Assembly (NCBI RefSeq): GCF_014648575.1
Contig: NZ_BMRJ01000002.1
Span: forward strand, 228,128-292,127
Length of the DNA: 64,000 bases
Source of the DNA: Agromyces mediolanus
GTDB lineage: Bacteria; Actinomycetota; Actinomycetes; Actinomycetales; Microbacteriaceae
Reading direction: 5' to 3'
Shown here: piece after piece, positions 14,899-60,368 of the stretch
Position numbering within the stretch: position 1 is the stretch's first letter
How the letters are laid out: each line of letters begins with the position of its first letter
The notes under the pieces: model-generated
Database searches by the model: none
What the model was told of the DNA's origin: nothing
Seen by the model: only the letters and a program-made list of their open reading frames with translations
Position numbers and translations under genes: made by a program

Positions 14899-14907
14899 GG
14901 CACCTCC

Positions 14908-14938
14908 TTGACCTCAAGTTTACTCGAGGTATTACCGT
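14908..14938 (+). promoter_or_regulatory. SoxR box within a 19-bp-spacer promoter
   Basis: The 18-bp box CCTCAAGTTTACTCGAGG (14912-14929) has 7 of 9 matching positions between its arms and fits the SoxR consensus. It lies between a -35 TTGACC (14908-14913) and a -10 TACCGT (14933-14938). The spacer is 19 bp, the over-long spacing typical of MerR-family promoters that need activator-induced DNA distortion. It points toward the MFS gene at 15004. Confidence 0.88.
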
Positions 14939-15003
14939 GGCCCGCGGCGCCGCATCGGCGCCCGGATGCCGCGGCATCCGCCCCTCGACACGAAGGACGG
15001 ACC

Positions 15004-34047: not shown

Positions 34048-35289
34048 ATGCCATTGCCCAGCGGAGTGCACACGCTCGTCAGACGCACGCACGAGGACCG
34101 CGTGCTGCAGCTGCTGCGCCAGCACGGCGGGATGACCCGCGGCGAGCTCGCGAAGCACATCGGGCTGTCGCGCACGACCCTCTCGGAGATCTCCGGCAAC
34201 CTCATCTCGCGCGGCGTCGTGTCGGTCACGATCGACGACTCGCCGCGCGTCGGCCGCGGCCGACCGGCCGAGATCCTGACGCTGGACCCGGCGGCGGGGC
34301 AGTACCTCGGCGTGGACTTCTCGCACCGGCGCGTCCGGGTCGCCGTGATGAACGCCGCGCACGAGCTCATCGCCTCCGACGTGGCGCCGTACGAGGAGCC
34401 GGCCGACTGGGGCACCCGCGTCGAGCTCGCCCTCGGGCTCATCGAGCGGCTCGCGGAGGCGCCCGAACTGCACTACGAGGGCATCCAGGGCGTCGCCATC
34501 GGCTTCCCCGGTCCGTTCTCGCCGCGCCTGCCGCGGCGGCGCGCCGAGCCGGTCGCCGAGGCCCGCCGGGTCGGGGCCGAACTGGTCCGCACGGCCTTCG
34601 AACGTCGCTTCGGCGTCCCCGTGCTCGTCGACAACAACACCCGCCTCGCGGCCCTCGGCGAGGCCGCCTGGGAACCGAGCACCGAGACCGAGCACCTGCT
34701 GTACGTGCGGCTGTCCGCCGGCATCGGCGGCGGGCTCGTCATCGGCGGCCGGCTCGTCACGGGCGCGGCCGGGTTCGCCGGGGAGTTCGGGCACATGAGC
34801 GTCGCCGGCAGCAGCGTCGACTGCCGCTGCGGCAAGCGCGGATGCCTCGAGACCATCGCCTCGATCGACGCGATCCTGCGGCGCTGCACCGAGACGGGCG
34901 CCGCCGTCACCACCCTGGCCGAGCTCGACGCCGCCGCCGCGAAGGGCGACCCGATCGTCATCGCCGCCCTGCGCGAGGCGGGGGAGGCCGTCGGCCAGGT
35001 GCTCGGTTCGCTCGCCGTCGCCACGAACCCCGCCGACATCGTCATCGGCGGCGAGGTGGCGCACGTGTCCGAGGTCGTCGTCGAGCAGATCGCCGCGACC
35101 GTCGCCTACGAGCTCGTCCCCGTGGGCGGCTCGACCCCGCGCATCCGGCGCGCCGTGCTCGGCGACGAGGGCGGCGCCATCGGCGGCATCATCGCGCTGC
35201 TGCGCAGCTCGCCGCTGCTCGCCGGCTACGCCACCCTGACCGCCGACGACGCGTCGGCCGAGACCCGATTGCGAAGGAGCAACGCCTAG
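34048..35289 (+). CDS. ROK family transcriptional regulator
   Basis: The protein has 413 residues from the ATG at 34048; the frame is open further upstream but that start would lie inside the promoter. The N-terminal part is a winged HTH ([32 protein letters not shown]). The rest is a ROK actin-like domain with [27 protein letters not shown] and the zinc motif [10 protein letters not shown]. The ROK kinase Asp in the NDA-type position is replaced here (Asn196/Asn197 in DNN), so it is a regulator, not a kinase. It precedes an ABC importer and two sulfatases, which it likely controls; the effector is probably a sugar or sugar phosphate. Confidence 0.93.
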
Positions 35290-35317
35290 TGTCCGCTTTC
35301 CCCCGAGGAGGACTCCG

Positions 35318-36187
35318 ATGGCCTCGATGACCGAGACCGTGACCGCCCGCGACGAGCCCGGCACCGCCACCTCGGCGAGCGCGCTCGCCGAGCCGAACGC
35401 CGAGCCGTCCCGCCGCACGCGCCGCGCGCGGCAGGACTCCGCGAAGCGCGCCCGCACCCTGCTGCTGAGCGCGATCAGCATCGCCGCCGGCATCGGCGTG
35501 TGGTGGTTGCTGTCGTCGATCGGCTTCAAGCTGCCCTCGCCCGCCGACGTCGTCGTGCGCGGCTGGGAGCTCACCGTCGACGGCACCCTCGGCGCCGATC
35601 TCGTCGCGAGCCTCACCCGCGTGCTCGTCGGCTTCGCGCTCGGCACGATCGTCGCCATCCCCGTCGGCTTCCTGATGGGCTGGTACGCCTGGGCGCGCGG
35701 GCTCATCGAGCCGTGGATCCAGTTCTTCCGGACCATCCCGCCGCTCGCGATCATCCCGCTCGCGATCGTGCTGCTCGGGATCGGCGAGGAGCCGAAGATC
35801 CTCGTGATCTTCCTGGCGGCGTTCTTCGCCTGCGTCATCTCGACGTTCCAGGGCGTCGTGAACGTCGACCGGACGCTCATCAACGCCGCCCGGGTGCTGG
35901 GCACCAAGGACGCCGGCATCTTCGTGCGGGTCGTCGTGCCGGCATCCGTGCCGTTCATCCTCGTCGGCATGCGCGTCGGCCTCGGCGCCGCCTGGGCGAC
36001 GCTCGTCGCGGCGGAGCTCATCGCCGCCCAGCAGGGCCTCGGCTACCGGATGCAGCAGGCCCAGCTCTACTACGACCTCCCGACGATCTTCGTCGGCCTC
36101 ATCGTCATCGGCGTGCTCGGCCTGGTCATGGACCGGCTCCTGCTGCTCGCCGAGAAGAAGCTCACCGGATGGCAGGAACGCCGATGA
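35318..36187 (+). CDS. ABC transporter permease, SsuC/TauC/NMT1-type
   Basis: The protein has 289 residues and about six membrane helices after a charged N-terminal extension (residues 1-45). GAGGAGGACTCC precedes the ATG. The BPD_transp motif is visible: [48 protein letters not shown]. It groups with nitrate/sulfonate/taurine/thiamine-precursor importers. The ATPase gene overlaps it by ATGA, and the lipoprotein follows, giving a complete importer. Confidence 0.93.
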
Positions 36188-37029
36188 CCACGACCACGCC
36201 CACCGCCGGCGGCCCCCGCATCTCGGTGCGGAACGTCACCCGTACCTTCGACCTCAAGGGCGAGGAGTTCGTCGCCCTCGACGACGTCTCGCTCGACGTC
36301 GCCGACAACGAGTTCATCACCGTCGTCGGGCCCTCCGGGTGCGGCAAGTCCACCCTCATGAACATCCTCGCCGGGCTTGACACCCCGACGAGCGGCGAGG
36401 CCCTCGTCGACGGCCGACCCGTCACCGGGCCGGGGCCCGACCGCGGCGTCATCTTCCAGCAGTACGCGCTCTTCCCCTGGCTCACGGTGCGCAAGAACGT
36501 CGAGTTCGGGCTGAAGACCGCCGGGCTGAGCGCGAAGGACCGGCGTGAGAAGGCCGAGCACTTCATCGAGATGGTCGGCCTCGGCGAGTTCGCCGACGCG
36601 CTGCCGAAGATGCTCTCCGGCGGCATGAAGCAGCGCTGCGCGATCGCGAGGGCGTACGCCGTCGATCCCAGCATCCTGCTCATGGACGAACCGTTCGGCG
36701 CCCTCGACGCCCTCACCCGCGTGAAGCTCCAGGAGCAGCTGCTCGACACGTGGAGCCGCGAGAAGCGCACCGTCATGTTCATCACGCACGACGTCGACGA
36801 GGCCGTCTTCCTCGCCAACCGCGTCGTCGTGATGGCGGCGCGGCCCGGTCGGATCTACGACGTCATCGACGTGGAGCTGCCGGGCCCGCGCACCGAGGAC
36901 CTGCGCCTCAGCCCCGAGTTCACCGAGCTCCGCAACCGGGTGTGGAGCGCCGTGTACCACCAGACCCCCGGCCGGCGCGTCGACGCCACCCACCGAGCCA
37001 TCGCACCATCCCCCACCGCCGTCGCCTGA
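36184..37029 (+). CDS. ABC transporter ATP-binding protein, SsuB/TauB-type
   Basis: The protein has 281 residues. All NBD motifs are present: Walker [11 protein letters not shown]-loop [13 protein letters not shown], signature LSGGMKQR, Walker [14 protein letters not shown] and the switch His in [10 protein letters not shown]. The sequence around [16 protein letters not shown] is typical of the sulfonate/nitrate/taurine branch. It overlaps the permease gene and is followed 22 bp later by the substrate-binding lipoprotein. Confidence 0.95.
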
Positions 37030-37050
37030 CGGCCAGAGCAGAGGACCCCC

Positions 37051-38076
37051 ATGCAGATCAGGACCACGCGCGGCATCGTCGCCGCCATCGCCACGGCGGC
37101 CGCCGCCGCCCTCGCCCTCGCCGGCTGCTCGAGCGCCGGCTCCGAGGCGCCCGCCGCGAGCGGCGACGCCGCGGCCGACTTCCCGAAGATCCGCTTCGGC
37201 TACATCGCCGACTTCAACGGCGGCAGCCTCCTCGCGATCGCCGAGGAGCAGGGCCTCTGGGAGAAGCAGGGGCTCGAGGTCGAGACCCCCGTCTTCACCA
37301 ACGGCCCGCTGCAGATCCAGGCGCTCGGCACGAACGACCTGGACTTCGGCTACATCGGGCCGGGCGCCATGTGGCTGCCCGCCTCGGGGCAGGCGGAGAT
37401 CGCCGCGATCAACGGCCTCGGCAACGCCGACCGTGTGATCGCGCAGCCCGGCATCGACTCGATCGAGGACCTCAAGGGCAAGAAGGTCGCCGTGCCCGAG
37501 GGCACCTCGGGCGACATGATCCTGACGATGGCGCTGAAGTCGGCCGGGCTCACCATCGACGACGTCGAGAAGGTCGCCATGGACCCGGCGACCGTGGTCT
37601 CGGCGTTCTCGTCGAAGCAGGTCGACGCGGCGGGCATCTGGTACCCGCTCATCGGCACGATCGAGCAGCAGGTGCCCGACCTCGAGATCCTCGCCGAGAA
37701 CGAGGACTTCGCCGAGGAGATCGCCTTCCCGAGCGCCTTCGTGGTCAGCCCCGCCTTCGCGGAGGAGCACCCGGAGGCCACGGAGGCCGTGCTCGCGGTG
37801 CTCCGCGAGGCGATGGACTACCGCGTCGAGCACCTCGACGAGACCGTCGAGCTCACGGCCGCGAAGCTCAAGGCCGACCCGAAGGGCTTCGCCGCGGATG
37901 CCGCGAACGCGAAGTACCTCTCGGCGAGCGAGCTCGACGAGCTCACCGAGGACGGCACGGTCGCCTCCTGGCTCACCGGCCTGAACGAGTACTTCGTCAC
38001 GGCGGGCAAGCTCGACGAGCCGACGGACGCCTCCACCTACTACCTCGGCGAGCAGTTCGTCGCTGCGGGGAAGTGA
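37051..38076 (+). CDS. ABC substrate-binding lipoprotein (NMT1/SsuA-type)
   Basis: The protein has 341 residues. It has a lipoprotein signal peptide with lipobox ALAGC (Cys26) followed by a Ser/Ala-rich linker. The mature part has the SBP fold of NMT1/SsuA/TauA proteins: IRFGYIADFNGGSLLAIAEEQGLWEKQGLEVE, IGPGAMWL, VAVPEGTSGDMILTMAL. Such proteins bind sulfonates, sulfate esters, nitrate, taurine or pyrimidine precursors. It is the third gene of the importer, immediately upstream of two sulfatases, which supports a sulfate-ester ligand. Confidence 0.93.
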   Translation: MQIRTTRGIVAAIATAAAAALALAGCSSAGSEAPAASGDAAADFPKIRFGYIADFNGGSLLAIAEEQGLWEKQGLEVETPVFTNGPLQIQALGTNDLDFGYIGPGAMWLPASGQAEIAAINGLGNADRVIAQPGIDSIEDLKGKKVAVPEGTSGDMILTMALKSAGLTIDDVEKVAMDPATVVSAFSSKQVDAAGIWYPLIGTIEQQVPDLEILAENEDFAEEIAFPSAFVVSPAFAEEHPEATEAVLAVLREAMDYRVEHLDETVELTAAKLKADPKGFAADAANAKYLSASELDELTEDGTVASWLTGLNEYFVTAGKLDEPTDASTYYLGEQFVAAGK

Positions 38077-38077
38077 C

Positions 38078-39592
38078 GTGACCGGGCGCAACATCCTCTT
38101 CCTGATGACCGACCAGCACCGGGTCGACAGCCTCGGTGCCTACGGGAACACCGCGGCGGAGACGCCCGCGCTCGACGCCCTCGCGGCGAGCGGCACCCGG
38201 TTCGACCGCTGGTTCACGCCCACCGCGATCTGCACGCCGGCGCGGGCGAGCCTGCTCACCGGGCAGGCGCCGTTCCGGCACAAGCTGCTCGCGAATCACG
38301 AGCGCAACGTCGGCTACATCGAGGATCTCCCGGACGGGCAGTTCGCGTTCTCCTCGGCACTGCGCGAGGCGGGCTACAACTGCGGCCTGCTCGGCAAGTG
38401 GCATGCCGGCACGAAGCGCACCGCGGCCGACTTCGGCTTCGACGGGCCGCACTTCGACGGCTGGCACAACGCGATCGACCACGAGGACTACCTCGCGTAC
38501 CTCGAGGAGCACGGGCTGCCGCCGTACGAGATCAGCGACCGCATCCGCGGCGTGCTGCCGAACGGCGGGCCGGGCAACCTGCTCGCCGCCCGCCTGCACC
38601 AGCCCGTCGAGGCGACCTTCGAGTACTACCTCGCGACGCGCACGATCGAGATGCTCGAACGCTACGCGGACGACTACCGCTCGGGACGGCGGCCGTTCTT
38701 CCTCGCGCTGCACTTCTTCGGCCCCCACCTGCCGTACATCGTGCCGAGCGAGTACTTCGACCGCTTCGATCCCGAGCAGATCGAGTTGCCCGTCTCGATG
38801 CTCGAGACGTTCGCGGGCAAGCCGCCGGTGCAGCGCAACTACAGCGCGCACTGGGCGTTCGACTCGCTGACGGTCGAGCAGAGCCGCAAGCTCATCGCCG
38901 TGTCCTGGGGGTACATCACCCTCATCGACGAGCAGATCGCCCGGGTCATGGCGGCGCTCGAGCGGCTCGGCCTCGTCGACGACACGGCGGTGTTCTTCAC
39001 GTGCGATCACGGCGAGTTCACCGGCTCGCACCGGCTCCACGACAAGGGGCCGGCGATGTACGAGGACATCTACCGCACCCCGGGCATCGTCCGGATCCCC
39101 GGGGCGCCCGCTGGGCAGGTGCGCGACGAGTTCGTCAGCCTGCTCGACTGCACCGCGACGATCCTCGAGCTCGCCGGGGTGGACCCGACGCCGGCGACGG
39201 ACTCCCGCAGCCTCGTGCCGCTCGTCGCGGGCGACTCGCCCGAGTGGCCCGACGACATCGTCTGCGAGTTCCACGGCCACCAGTTCCCGTATCCGCAGCG
39301 CATGCTGCGGAACGAGCGCTACAAGCTGGTCGTCAACCCGGAGTCGGTGAACGAGCTCTACGACCTCGGACTCGACCCCGACGAGCTGCAGAACGTCTAC
39401 GAACTGCCGGAGTACGGCGCGATCCGCCAGCGGATGCTGGAGCGGCTCTACCGACTGCTGCAGGAGCGGGGCGACAACTTCTCGCACTGGATGACCGCGA
39501 TGTACCCCGTCGGCGGGGTCGACTACGACCCCTCCTTCGGCGGCTTCGACGACGCGGCCTACACCCCCGAGCGCACGCTCGTGCACGAATGA
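38078..39592 (+). CDS. type I sulfatase (cytoplasmic), copy 1
   Basis: The protein has 504 residues with a GTG start 1 bp after the lipoprotein stop. It has no signal peptide, so it acts in the cytoplasm. The formylglycine site is CTPAR (Cys52), within ICTPARASLLTGQAPFR. Metal-binding residues are in LFLMTDQHRVDSLGAYG and FTCDHGEFTGSHRLHDKGP. FGly formation would require a formylglycine-generating enzyme elsewhere in the genome. It resembles choline-sulfatase/arylsulfatase-like S1 enzymes. Its location after an importer supports hydrolysis of an imported sulfate ester. Confidence 0.93.
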   Translation: MTGRNILFLMTDQHRVDSLGAYGNTAAETPALDALAASGTRFDRWFTPTAICTPARASLLTGQAPFRHKLLANHERNVGYIEDLPDGQFAFSSALREAGYNCGLLGKWHAGTKRTAADFGFDGPHFDGWHNAIDHEDYLAYLEEHGLPPYEISDRIRGVLPNGGPGNLLAARLHQPVEATFEYYLATRTIEMLERYADDYRSGRRPFFLALHFFGPHLPYIVPSEYFDRFDPEQIELPVSMLETFAGKPPVQRNYSAHWAFDSLTVEQSRKLIAVSWGYITLIDEQIARVMAALERLGLVDDTAVFFTCDHGEFTGSHRLHDKGPAMYEDIYRTPGIVRIPGAPAGQVRDEFVSLLDCTATILELAGVDPTPATDSRSLVPLVAGDSPEWPDDIVCEFHGHQFPYPQRMLRNERYKLVVNPESVNELYDLGLDPDELQNVYELPEYGAIRQRMLERLYRLLQERGDNFSHWMTAMYPVGGVDYDPSFGGFDDAAYTPERTLVHE

Positions 39593-39597
39593 GGACG

Positions 39598-41046
39598 ATG
39601 AGCACCGAGCATCCCCGACGGCCCAACGTCGTCATCATCCTGACCGACGACCACGCCGCGCACGCGATCGGCGCCTACGGCTCGGTCGTGAACCGCACCC
39701 CGCGGATCGACGAGATCGCCGAGGCCGGCGTCCGGCTCGACAACTGCTTCTGCACGAACGCGCTGTGCACGCCGAGCCGGGCCACGATCCTCACCGGGAC
39801 CTACAGCCACGTCAACGGCGTCACCACGCTCGAGACCCCGATCGACGCCTCGCAGCCGACCTTCGTCTCGCAGCTCAAGGAGGCCGGCTACCGCACGGCG
39901 ATCGTCGGCAAGTGGCACATGGGGGAGGGGCCCGGGCACGACCCGGAGGGCTTCGACTACTGGGCGGTGCTGCGCGATCAGGGCGAGTACTTCGATCCGC
40001 AGATCCGCACGGCGCAGGGCGTCGAGATCGTCGAGGGGTATGCGACCGACGTCATCACCGATCTCTCGCTCGACTGGCTGGACTCGCTCGAGGGGGAGGA
40101 GCCGTGGTGCCTGCTCGTGCACCACAAGGCGCCGCACCGCCCGTGGGAGCCGGACGAGCGGCACCGCGGCATGTACCGCGAGCCGATCCCGGTGCCGGCG
40201 ACCTTCGGCGACGACTACGCCACCCGGGGCTCGGCGGCGCACCGTGCGGCGATGCGGATCGCCGACCATCTGACGCTCGCGGACCTCAAGGAGCTGCCGC
40301 CCGAGGGGCTCGACTACGAGCAGGCCGCGCTGTGGAAGTACCAGCGCTACATGGAGGACTACCTCGCGTGCGTGGCGTCCGTCGACGACAACGTCGGCCG
40401 GGTGATCGACTGGCTGCGCGCGCACGACTCGTTCGACGACACGCTCCTGATGTACACCTCGGACCAGGGCTTCTTCCTCGGCGACCACGGCTGGTTCGAC
40501 AAGCGCTTCATGTACGACGAGTCGCTGCGGATGCCGCTGCTCGTGAGCTGCCCGTCGCGCATTCCGGCCCGCTCCGAACCGCTCGGGCAGATCGTCACGA
40601 ACGTCGACTTCGCGCAGACCGTGCTCGAGGCCGCCGGGGTCGCCCCGCATCCGCGGATGCAGGGACTCAGCATCTGGCCGCAGCTCACGAGCGAGCCGGA
40701 TGCCCCGACGCGCCCCGCGATGTACTACCGCTACTTCGAGAACGACGATGTGAACCATCACGCGCTCGCGCACTACGGCATCCGCACGGAGCGGTACAAG
40801 CTCATCTACTTCTACAACGACGGGATGGGGCTGCCGGGCAGCTCGCCGCACGTCTACCCGCCGGAGTGGGAGCTGTACGACCTCGAGCTCGACCCCGAGG
40901 AGCTGCGGAACGTCGTGCGCGATCCGGCGTACCGCGGCATCCGCGAGGAACTCGAGGTGCAGCTGTGGGAGCTCCAGGCGGAGCTGCTCGATGCGCCGCA
41001 CCCCTCGCAGCCCGTCCCGGAACGCGTGCGGGTCGCCGCTGGCTGA
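39598..41046 (+). CDS. type I sulfatase (cytoplasmic), copy 2
   Basis: The protein has 482 residues from the ATG at 39598 (GAGG 3 nt upstream); an ATG at 39589 overlapping the previous stop is also possible. The formylglycine motif is CTPSR (Cys57) in ALCTPSRATILTG, with VVIILTDDHAAHAIGAYG at the start and YTSDQGFFLGDHGWFDKRFMYDE for metal and substrate binding. It has no signal peptide. It resembles S1 sulfatases such as those acting on sulfated sugars. Copies 1 and 2 are clearly different in sequence, so they may act on different sulfate positions. Confidence 0.92.
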   Translation: MSTEHPRRPNVVIILTDDHAAHAIGAYGSVVNRTPRIDEIAEAGVRLDNCFCTNALCTPSRATILTGTYSHVNGVTTLETPIDASQPTFVSQLKEAGYRTAIVGKWHMGEGPGHDPEGFDYWAVLRDQGEYFDPQIRTAQGVEIVEGYATDVITDLSLDWLDSLEGEEPWCLLVHHKAPHRPWEPDERHRGMYREPIPVPATFGDDYATRGSAAHRAAMRIADHLTLADLKELPPEGLDYEQAALWKYQRYMEDYLACVASVDDNVGRVIDWLRAHDSFDDTLLMYTSDQGFFLGDHGWFDKRFMYDESLRMPLLVSCPSRIPARSEPLGQIVTNVDFAQTVLEAAGVAPHPRMQGLSIWPQLTSEPDAPTRPAMYYRYFENDDVNHHALAHYGIRTERYKLIYFYNDGMGLPGSSPHVYPPEWELYDLELDPEELRNVVRDPAYRGIREELEVQLWELQAELLDAPHPSQPVPERVRVAAG

Positions 41047-41089
41047 GAGCGCTTCCAAGCTGCCGCGGCGCGTCGCCCGTTCGGGGGTG

Positions 41090-41117
41090 TTGGCCGGGTG
41101 CCGCCTGGGAGTATGCT
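41090..41117 (+). promoter_or_regulatory. promoter of a candidate non-coding RNA
   Basis: TTGGCC (41090-41095) and TATGCT (41112-41117) with a 16-bp spacer form a plausible promoter inside a gene-free region. The predicted start, about 41124, is exactly where a 10-bp stem begins. Confidence 0.55.
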
Positions 41118-41123
41118 GACGCG

Positions 41124-41328
41124 CACTGCGGTGGTTGCGGCACGTCAACCGTTCGAGCGGCGTGCCGGCGCACCGCAGTGGGGGTCGACCCGGGCGAGAT
41201 CGGGGGGATGCTTGCCCGGGCCGGCCGTGCCATCGGAGCGGCAGGGAAAACGCCGGCCTCCGATGTCCTTCCGGGTGGGAACCACCCCGAAGGTAGGGGG
41301 ATCCTGCCAGAGTGCGGCCCCGGCCGCA
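41124..41328 (+). ncRNA. candidate structured non-coding RNA of unknown class
   Basis: A chain of strong complementary segments is visible: CACTGCGGTG (41124-41133) with CACCGCAGTG (41171-41180), enclosing GGCACG/CGTGCC (41139-41144, 41161-41166); CCCGGGC/GCCCGGG (41189-41195, 41214-41220); ATCGGAG/CTCCGAT (41232-41238, 41258-41264) enclosing CGGC/GCCG; CCTTC-C-GGGTGG/CCACCC-C-GAAGG (41267-41293) with a GAA loop; and TGCGGCC/GGCCGCA (41313-41328). A promoter-like sequence ends 7 nt before the first stem. It lies between convergent genes, so it is not a 5' leader of a coding gene. I do not recognise a known class (not SRP RNA, tmRNA, RNase P or c-di-AMP riboswitch by memory). Confidence 0.55.
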
Positions 41329-41361
41329 AATCGACGAACGCGGTCCGCTTCGGTGGTGGTG

Positions 41362-41520
41362 CGCTGAGCTTGTCGAAGCGGCGTTGGTGCGCTGAGCTTG
41401 TCGAAGCGGCTGTGGTCCGCTGAGCTCGTCGAAGCGGCGTTCCCTTCGACGGGCTCAGGGAACCAGGTGTTCCCTTCGACGGGCTCAGGGAACCAGCTGT
41501 TCCCTTCGACGGGCTCAGGG
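41362..41520. repeat. array of dispersed CTGAGC..GTCGAAG repeats, both orientations
   Basis: Three 19-bp copies of CGCTGAGCTYGTCGAAGCG (41362-41380, 41390-41408, 41418-41436) are followed by three copies of the opposite-orientation element CCCTTCGACGGGCTCAGGG (41442-41460, 41472-41490, 41502-41520), the last three as a 30-bp tandem with GAACCAG spacers. Opposite orientations can pair into hairpins. The last copy contains the stop codon of the minus-strand gene that ends at 41515. No mobile-element gene is present. Confidence 0.9.
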
Positions 41521-42105
41521 GGCCAGGGCGGCGGCGACCCGCTCGCGCAGCACGGGCAGCAGTTCGGCGGCGAACCAGGGGTTCCGCTGCTGCCAGGCCG
41601 TGTTGCGGGGGCTCGGATGCACGAGCGGGACGATCGCCGGCCCGAACTCGGCGAAGTCGCGCACCGTCCGGGTGAGACTGGCGCCGCCCCGCCGACCCAG
41701 GTAGTGCCGCTGCGCGTAGCCGCCGATGAGCAGGGTCAGCCGGAGCTCGGGCATCGATCGCAGGATCGGCGGATGCCACCTCGCGGCGAAGCCGGGCCGC
41801 GGCGGCAGGTCGCCGTTCGGGCCGCGACCCGGGTAGAAGAAGTCCATCGACAGGAACGCGAATGTCTCCGGCGCGCGGAAGGTGGGCTCGTCCACGCCGA
41901 GCCAGTCGCGGAGCCGCGCGCCGCTCGCATCGCTCCAGGGGAGGGCGTTGTCCTGCGCCTGCCTGCCGGGGGACTGCCCGACGACGAGGATGCGCGCGCG
42001 GGGGTCGGCGGTGAAGACGGGCTGCGCCCCGGCGTCCACGAACGCGCGGTTCGCCGGGTCCGCGACGATCGCGGCGCGGATCGACGCGATCGCCTCGGAG
42101 CTCAT
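41515..42105 (-). CDS. uracil-DNA-glycosylase-superfamily protein
   Basis: The protein has 196 residues. It has the family motif ILVVGQSPGRQAQDNALPWSD, in which VVGQSPG corresponds to the water-activating loop of UDG, and VHPSPRNTAWQQRNPW near the C-terminus. RHYLG is consistent with the uracil-DNA-glycosylase-like (UdgX/Udg5-related) YqiX group. It may remove uracil or other damaged bases from DNA; activity is not certain. Its TGA lies inside the last repeat copy (41502-41520), so the gene end coincides with the repeat array. Confidence 0.85.
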   Translation of the reverse strand: MSSEAIASIRAAIVADPANRAFVDAGAQPVFTADPRARILVVGQSPGRQAQDNALPWSDASGARLRDWLGVDEPTFRAPETFAFLSMDFFYPGRGPNGDLPPRPGFAARWHPPILRSMPELRLTLLIGGYAQRHYLGRRGGASLTRTVRDFAEFGPAIVPLVHPSPRNTAWQQRNPWFAAELLPVLRERVAAALAP

Positions 42106-42132: not shown

Positions 42133-42218
42133 CGCTGAGCTTGTCGAAGCGGGGTGGGGGTTCCCTTCGACGGGCTCAGGGAACCAGGGGGGCTCAGGGA
42201 ACCAGGGGGCTCAGGGGT
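42133..42218. repeat. second cluster of the same repeat family
   Basis: CGCTGAGCTTGTCGAAGCG (42133-42151) is followed by CCCTTCGACGGGCTCAGGG (42163-42181) and two decaying partial copies (GGCTCAGGGAACCAGG at 42191-42206 and GGCTCAGGGG at 42209-42218). As at the first cluster, a minus-strand gene ends in the repeat (stop at 42211-42213). Confidence 0.88.
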
Positions 42219-43142: not shown

Positions 43143-43178
43143 GGAGTTGCCCGACTTTCATGAAAGTCGGGCAACTCC
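43143..43178. repeat. 36-bp perfect palindrome, first copy
   Basis: The sequence GGAGTTGCCCGACTTTCA at 43143-43160 is followed directly by its perfect reverse complement (43161-43178). A second 30-bp copy of the core lies at 45578-45607. It sits between the divergent coiled-coil and PadR genes, upstream of the PadR operator region. It could form a cruciform or a strong RNA hairpin. Confidence 0.92.
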
Positions 43179-43196
43179 GAAAAAGTTCGGTATTCG

Positions 43197-43249
43197 GTGT
43201 TGCTAAGTACCGGTACTCAGTGTTACTTTCTAGTGGTACTCAGCAACAC
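43197..43249 (+). promoter_or_regulatory. PadR operator region with three half-sites
   Basis: GTGTTGCTAAGTACC (43197-43211) is inverted relative to GGTACTCAGTGTTAC (43212-43226) and GGTACTCAGCAACAC (43235-43249). The first and third arms match in 14 of 15 positions; the first and second form a perfect AGTACCGGTACT (43206-43217). A possible -10 TACTTT (43224-43229) with a -35 TTGCTA (43200-43205) lies within. It precedes the PadR gene at 43285 and is a strong autoregulatory operator. Confidence 0.75.
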
Positions 43250-43284
43250 TGAATAGCAAAGCATGAAGAGAAGGGAGCATCCCG

Positions 43285-49141: not shown

Positions 49142-49260
49142 GCACAGGGCGCCGCCCCGCTCAGCGCCCGGGCCCCGCTGGCCCGCCGAGGGGGTCGTTC
49201 TGCGACTTCCGTTCCGTCCCGGCGCGGCGCCAGCGTCGGAAAGCGACCCCCGCGGCGCGC

Positions 49261-55136: not shown

Positions 55137-55182
55137 GCCTCGCCCCCGGGCATCCCCCGCTCCGCCTGGCCCAGCCGCCCGC

Positions 55183-55244
55183 GGCAAGACGTCAGTATTT
55201 GCGGGTGGGGAAGGCCGCGCACCCGCAGATACTGACTTCTTGCC
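55183..55244. repeat. 25-bp inverted repeat with 2 mismatches, possible terminator
   Basis: The arm at 55183-55207 and the reverse complement of the arm at 55220-55244 match in 23 of 25 positions (begin GGCAAGACGTC, end GCGGGTG), with a 12-nt loop. It lies 46 bp after the arylsulfatase stop and would make a very stable RNA hairpin, with a T-poor tail. Confidence 0.85.
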
Positions 55245-55260
55245 TCGGAGGTCGGGCCCC

Positions 55261-55320
55261 GCAGGGGTGGGTGGGCGCAGGGGTGGGTGGGCGCAGGGGT
55301 GGGTGGGCGCAGGGGTGGGG
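55261..55320 (+). repeat. G-rich 16-bp tandem repeat, four copies
   Basis: The unit GCAGGGGTGGGTGGGC occurs with a 16-bp period from 55261 to 55320 (3.7 copies, the last degenerate). The runs GGGG.GGG.GGG could form G-quadruplexes on the plus strand. It lies between the arylsulfatase and FAD-oxidase genes, both of which end here. Confidence 0.85.
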
Positions 55321-55377
55321 GCGCCGGGGCAGGATCCGCGAGACGATCTCCCGCGGGGGCGGGCCGCGGGGAGCGGC

Positions 55378-60193: not shown

Positions 60194-60282
60194 CGGCTGG
60201 CGCACCGACGCACGAGCGCGCGGCATCCCTCCCCGGGTGCCGCGCGCTCCGTCGTCTCCGGGGTTCAGCGTCCGGCGGCGAC

Positions 60283-60354
60283 GCGAGTTGCACGACGAAC
60301 AGCAGGGCGCGCCGGCGTGCACGGGCGCGCGGCCCGATTCATCGTGCAACTCGC
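60283..60354. repeat. 13-bp inverted repeat, possible two-way terminator
   Basis: GCGAGTTGCACGA (60283-60295) and TCGTGCAACTCGC (60342-60354) are perfectly complementary with a 46-nt GC-rich inner region. It lies in the gap between the lipoprotein (ends 60193) and the convergent TetR gene (ends 60369) and could terminate both. Confidence 0.75.
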
Positions 60355-60368
60355 CCCCGACCCGGGGC

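Follow-up and report, generated by a model that had tools for sequence, protein, structure and literature searches.

A candidate structured RNA of narrow distribution between two convergent genes of Agromyces

Does a gene-free gap between two converging genes encode a structured RNA with a promoter of its own, or does it simply bring transcription to a halt? The question is raised by positions 41047-41514 of a 64 000-nucleotide stretch (hereafter the window; contig C2:228128-292127) from the 3.86-Mb genome of a soil bacterium closely related to Agromyces soli. As stated in the original prediction, the two flanking genes are convergent: a sulfatase gene on the plus strand has its stop at 41046, and a gene of the uracil-DNA glycosylase (UDG) superfamily, on the minus strand, ends at 41515. 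Our tentative answer, to which we give a probability of about 0.38, is that the gap holds a structured RNA, restricted to one lineage and some 190-225 nt long, that is transcribed rightward.

No protein gene was called in the gap by the codon-usage script, and neither tRNA nor tmRNA was found in the window. The nearest relative found (a genome taken as A. soli KACC 16215) carries a homologue at the collinear locus. This homologue has two 1-nt insertions, near 41060 and near 41180, that put the reading frames of the two species out of register, and the stretch is thus not a conserved protein gene. On the sulfatase side, the gap follows a cluster (34066-41046) that encodes a ROK-family regulator, parts of an ABC transporter together with an NMT1-like binding protein, and a pair of sulfatases. 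The two sulfatase genes are adjacent, and they overlap should the second begin with the ATG at 39589. A 17-nt inverted repeat (41023-41039/41531-41547, 94% complementary) also joins both convergent gene ends across the element; it is probably due to chance, as both arms encode similar C-terminal residues.

The features of the locus are gathered in table 1. The perfect 10-bp stem of the original prediction was recovered as the outer stem of hairpin H1 (CACTGCGGTG/CACCGCAGTG, 41124-41133/41171-41180), which begins 78 nt past the sulfatase stop. Further hairpins do follow this stem, three in number (H2-H4) where four had been announced, and the one described as an 11-bp stem with a GAA loop is interrupted by a C/C mismatch, leaving 6 bp and 5 bp (41267-41293). 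Compared with shuffled sequences, the stretch 41047-41345 reaches fold z-scores of -3.80 and -3.76 (plus and minus strands, respectively), and 41123-41345 reaches -3.25 and -3.85; the A. soli homologue has a z-score of -2.49. All 36 coding windows sampled fold more weakly than the element in the window (lowest z-score, -2.49).

Table 1. Features of the convergent gap and its flanks (positions in the window)
Feature	Position	Strand	Remarks
Sulfatase gene, second of an adjacent pair	39589..41046	+	upstream flank
Candidate promoter TTGGCC-16-TATGCT	41090..41117	+	TTGGCC 41090-41095, TATGCT 41112-41117, 16-nt spacer
H1: perfect 10-bp outer stem with inner 7-bp and 4-bp stems	41124..41180	+	fold
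H2: 18 pairs, all-G pentaloop 41202-41206	41183..41226	+	fold; all pairs unchanged in A. soli
H3: outer stem of 8 bp, perfect in the window	41231..41265	+	two pairs broken in A. soli
H4: 6 bp, C/C mismatch, 5 bp, GAA loop	41267..41293	+	fold
Short GC self-complementary stretch GCGGCCCCGGCCGC, without U-run	41314..41327	+	missing from the minimum-energy fold
Array of REP-like repeats, three of 28 nt followed by three of 30 nt, the two sets mutually inverted	41357..41527	.	dispersed through the genome
UDG superfamily protein gene	41515..42105	-	convergent flank

The density of perfect complementary pairs had been described as much higher than in other gaps. This claim is not upheld, because both stem counts and fold energies are matched elsewhere in the window. 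Indeed, the 299-nt stretch contains only two perfect stems that reach 8 bp or more (loop of 3-40 nt), and at least two such stems occur in 215 of 1274 sliding windows. Similarly, when intergenic gaps of at least 100 nt were compared (long ones being cut up, with 40 shuffles each), 3 of the 27 other stretches folded at or below the z-score of -3.35 obtained for the target, namely 43162-43284 (-5.17), 14899-15003 (-3.84) and 60194-60368 (-3.35). The first of these, which beats the element, and the second are divergent intergenic stretches with 93.5% and 98.1% identity in A. soli, respectively; 14899-15003 is possibly a conserved leader or operator.

Upstream of the hairpins, the promoter-like site TTGGCC-16-TATGCT is present at 41090-41117 as claimed. 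A start is predicted from it at about 41123-41125, that is at the base of the 10-bp stem of H1, in agreement with the original proposal that the expected start coincides with this stem (from 41124). TANNNT is the usual actinobacterial -10 element. The general pattern TTGNNN-16-TANNNT, counted at the 16-nt spacing alone, occurs at this single site in the 64 kb on both strands, against a chance expectation of 0.58, and at least one such site turns up in 43 of 100 shuffled versions of the window. The site fits 8 of the 12 sigma-70 consensus bases and is not listed by the promoter scan, which demands nine; the scan lists no site on either strand at the element. In A. soli, the counterpart reads TTGGCT-16-TATGCT, so that the TTG, the TATGCT and the spacing are retained with 3 of 28 bases different, a substitution rate equal to that of the surroundings (8/74). 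As evidence the promoter match is weak; it favours the plus strand.

At the other end, the gap closes on an array of REP-like repeats (core CTTCGACGGGCTCAGGGAAC, inverted form GCTGAGCTTGTCGAAGC), found at 41357-41527 and again at 42165-42184. The last array copy overlaps the UDG stop codon, and the array runs just beyond the end of the gap; its A. soli counterpart is shorter. When the own genome was queried with 41047-41520, 119 matches came back; apart from the self-match, all of them (118) fall in the final 195 query bases. A dispersed repeat was rejected for the element itself: within its own genome, 41047-41325 has no match other than itself (E up to 0.001). The array folds very strongly (z-score of -6.93) and is likely to act as a bidirectional stop for transcription entering it. 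The scan for intrinsic terminators, which looks for a GC hairpin with a U-run behind it, found none in 40950-41600, and hairpins lacking a U-run may still act there; the GC-rich stretch GCGGCCCCGGCCGC (41314-41327) could be a 3′ end signal, judging from its sequence.

These observations give substance to the main rival reading, which we consider possible if somewhat unlikely: tandem U-less hairpins and REP-like repeats would both end and protect the mRNA of the sulfatase operon, and the UDG mRNA from the other side, the hairpins being structures of a 3′ UTR or terminator and the promoter-like match being then a product of chance or of minor importance. The convergent arrangement, the lack of U-run terminators in 40950-41600 and the strong folding of the array all speak for it, as does the convergent gap 60194-60368, which is about equally structured. 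Moreover, according to a review, mycobacteria mostly use U-less, I-shaped terminators located within 50 bp of the stop codon, intrinsic terminators being scarce in these bacteria and Rho dominant (PMC12288462). The GC-rich hairpins without U-run placed here after a stop codon resemble such terminators. However, the 10-bp stem stands further from its stop codon than the 50 bp given in this review, and behind a promoter-like site (PMC12288462). The reading also leaves unexplained a TTG-16-TATGCT kept in both species with a predicted start at the base of H1, and the sequence identity of the element exceeds that of the three other convergent gaps for which more than 40 bases could be aligned (55137-55377, 76.4%; 49142-49260, 78.0%, aligned over 41 bases only; 60194-60368, 89.7%, aligned over 68 bases only).

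The comparison with A. soli bears on a further explanation, namely that the gap is ordinary intergenic sequence shaped by chance and by palindrome-prone mutation in a GC-rich context, with no selected function. Across the body of the element (41121-41345), the two species agree at 210 of 225 positions (93.3%), A. soli having one inserted nucleotide, versus 2468/2789 (88.5%) for other aligned intergenic sequence and 13851/15905 (87.1%) for third codon positions (one-sided Fisher test, p = 0.013 and 0.002, respectively). The excess is significant relative to third positions of the UDG gene (p = 0.001), and not relative to those of either sulfatase gene nearby (89.9 and 90.1%; p = 0.086 and 0.099). 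Among gaps with more than 40 aligned bases, 8 of 24 are at least as identical as the body (93.5-98.1%), none of the eight being convergent.

Substitutions within the hairpins were examined on a structure of 64 pairs drawn from the window alone, and the analysis compares two sequences that are 93% alike. Nine of the 11 substitutions fall in paired positions, which make up 128 of 183 bases. In two pairs both partners have changed and still match (41138/41167 in H1 and 41270/41290 in H4), two pairs of H1 have become G-U in A. soli, and three are broken there (two in H3, which refolds in that species, and one in H4). When the 11 substitutions were placed at random, at least two compensatory pairs arose in 1.2% of 100000 trials, and at least two together with at most three broken pairs in 0.46%; under the same random placement, broken pairs taken alone are not significantly few (p = 0.087). 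Sliding the partners by one to three columns left no double change. A column-shuffle control of the pair counter (131/500) is uninformative with two sequences, and H2, being invariant, provides no information for or against its own pairing.

We consider it unlikely that the gap is without function. Against a gap without selected function stand the two compensatory pairs, the unchanged TTG and TATGCT and an identity above that of third codon positions overall. That explanation draws support from the homologue being found in one sister species alone, from the gaps that are equally structured or equally conserved, from the mere two long perfect stems, and from statistics that derive from one comparison, with p-values mostly between 0.002 and 0.1. 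In addition, template-switch correction of quasi-palindromes could yield paired changes without selection.

The direction of transcription raises a further issue. Under random mutation, 34/200 mutants (41121-41345) and 46/200 (41124-41300) folded as low as the A. soli plus strand, compared with 13/200 and 8/200, respectively, for the minus strand; on the plus strand, A. soli is not significantly better folded than its random mutants. The upstream stretch 41047-41120 behaves alike in the same test (99/200 on the plus strand, 7/200 on the minus strand), so the minus-strand effect is not specific to the element. One-sided changes are balanced, two in H1 suiting the plus strand and two in H3/H4 suiting the minus strand. 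As far as the sequences of the two species go, structure does not settle the strand.

It seems quite improbable, yet worth stating, that the RNA is read from the minus strand, either as the 3′ UTR of the UDG gene or as an independent RNA exposing C-runs (the complements of 41180-41184, 41202-41207 and 41296-41300) that would pair with G-rich ribosome-binding sites by analogy with B11/6C RNA. The C-rich loops of B11/6C RNA are described as pairing with G-rich upstream regions, and B11 represses its targets in this way (PMC10470900). The minus strand of the element folds with a z-score of -3.85, presents a C-run in the terminal loop of H2 and outperforms most random mutants in A. soli, and two of the pairs broken on the plus strand, in H3 and H4, would be G-U on the minus strand. 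Against this, the two H1 changes that give G-U on the plus strand are mismatched on the minus strand, the upstream stretch displays the same mutant effect (7/200), the REP-like array sits between the UDG gene and the element, 6C is unmatched even at E up to 10, and the promoter scan lists no minus-strand site (nor a plus-strand one).

That no known RNA class fits, as first proposed, is in line with the Rfam searches, which gave no usable match at gathering or permissive thresholds. At the gathering score, Rfam 15 has no match in the 64 kb of the window, nor in a 19.9-kb stretch of A. soli. At E up to 10, the region 40900-41560 gives 16 sub-threshold matches, 12 of them to miRNA families and none within 41063-41334; the 6S, 6C, raiA and c-di-AMP families are absent from these 16. 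A 6C RNA was rejected, as its model matched neither strand at E up to 10. The 6S and Ms1 RNAs adopt the shape of a rod with a bubble and are of a size range similar to that of the element. The element differs from them in being a chain of separate hairpins, restricted to one lineage and without a HAD-hydrolase neighbour. Ms1 is reported from most Actinobacteria and synteny with a HAD-IB hydrolase gene serves as a criterion (PMC9130861). Ms1 was rejected here: the neighbours are the sulfatase and UDG genes, and a search with TIGR01490, the model chosen for HAD-IB, gave a sole match in the genome, on another contig and below the cut-off.

Like 6C/B11 RNA, the element possesses a hairpin whose loop is a homopolymer, which is all G on the plus strand and a C-run on the minus strand. 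It differs by its several longer hairpins, by the presence of G rather than C on the promoter-like strand, by its occurrence in only 2/60 genomes of the genus and by the absence of an Rfam match. The closest likeness in general organization is to lineage-specific intergenic small RNAs of actinobacteria, through a gene-free location, a promoter-like site, a folded body and a narrow distribution; unlike them, the element is a predicted RNA and lies between convergent genes, against a repeat array. Among the titles listed in literature searches on small RNAs of Microbacteriaceae and of Agromyces, none concerned small RNAs of this genus.

The distribution of the element is indeed narrow. Conservation in relatives, on whose absence the original prediction was to fall, is nearly lacking: blastn found the homologue in 1 of the 59 other genomes of the genus (2/60 counting the own genome). 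In the family and order samples, blastn retrieved the own genome alone (1/398 and 1/396, respectively), which is weak evidence of absence because few candidates were scored (two per genome) and A. soli, which is not among the 21 genomes listed in each, was either outside the samples or missed. Seven extra blastn matches (E of 4.5e-5 to 9.9e-4; six genus genomes and one order genome), spanning 24-44 bases, were judged to be chance. A covariance model (E up to 0.1) matched 3/60 genomes of the genus; the third match, a weak one (23.3 bits, E of 0.094 for one genome), was rejected for its many gaps and unpaired positions. In the family, where six candidates were scored for each genome, 1/398 matched. 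Allowing as many as three mismatches, the H2 stretch was found in 2/60 genomes of the genus, and a degenerate H2 pattern run against genome contigs recovered A. soli only. Phage and plasmid collections gave no blastn match to the element, and none of the viral contigs carries the exact 22-mer of the H2 loop region.

The flanking genes are more widespread in the genus, relatives of the sulfatase (E limit 1e-80) and of the UDG protein (E limit 1e-20) each occurring in 17/60 genomes, including the own genome and A. soli. In the 15 other genomes for each gene, the 1500 bases downstream of these relatives (445 bases in one case, at a contig end) gave no blastn match to the element better than E of 0.015. 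As far as searched, the element is confined to the species of the window and A. soli. Being found in only one close relative, it is at best a narrowly distributed and unproven candidate small RNA, and it may simply be a transcription-stop region.

If the structured-RNA reading holds, transcription would set out rightward from the promoter-like site (41090-41117) and halt in or before the REP-like array; the 5′ end of the RNA would fold into the stem of H1, and the chain H1-H4 would form its body. We infer its separate transcription, strand, 3′ end and mode of action alike. Should the RNA act in trans, our guess at the most likely action is that runs of G (41180-41184, 41296-41300 and the GGGGG loop of H2) would pair with C-rich stretches of mRNAs. 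By extension, one may imagine a new and young class of trans-acting RNA in the A. soli lineage, seeded by the homopolymer loop (GGGGG on the plus strand, a C-run on the minus strand) atop the invariant 18-pair stem of H2. Such a class would mirror 6C/B11 RNA or have converged on a similar solution; we regard this as a long shot.

If the element is not expressed, it illustrates that fold energy and a promoter match in a GC-rich gap are weak evidence on their own. If it is expressed, it would be an Agromyces small RNA outside every Rfam family, and an example of young RNAs arising beside repeat arrays at the ends of convergent genes.
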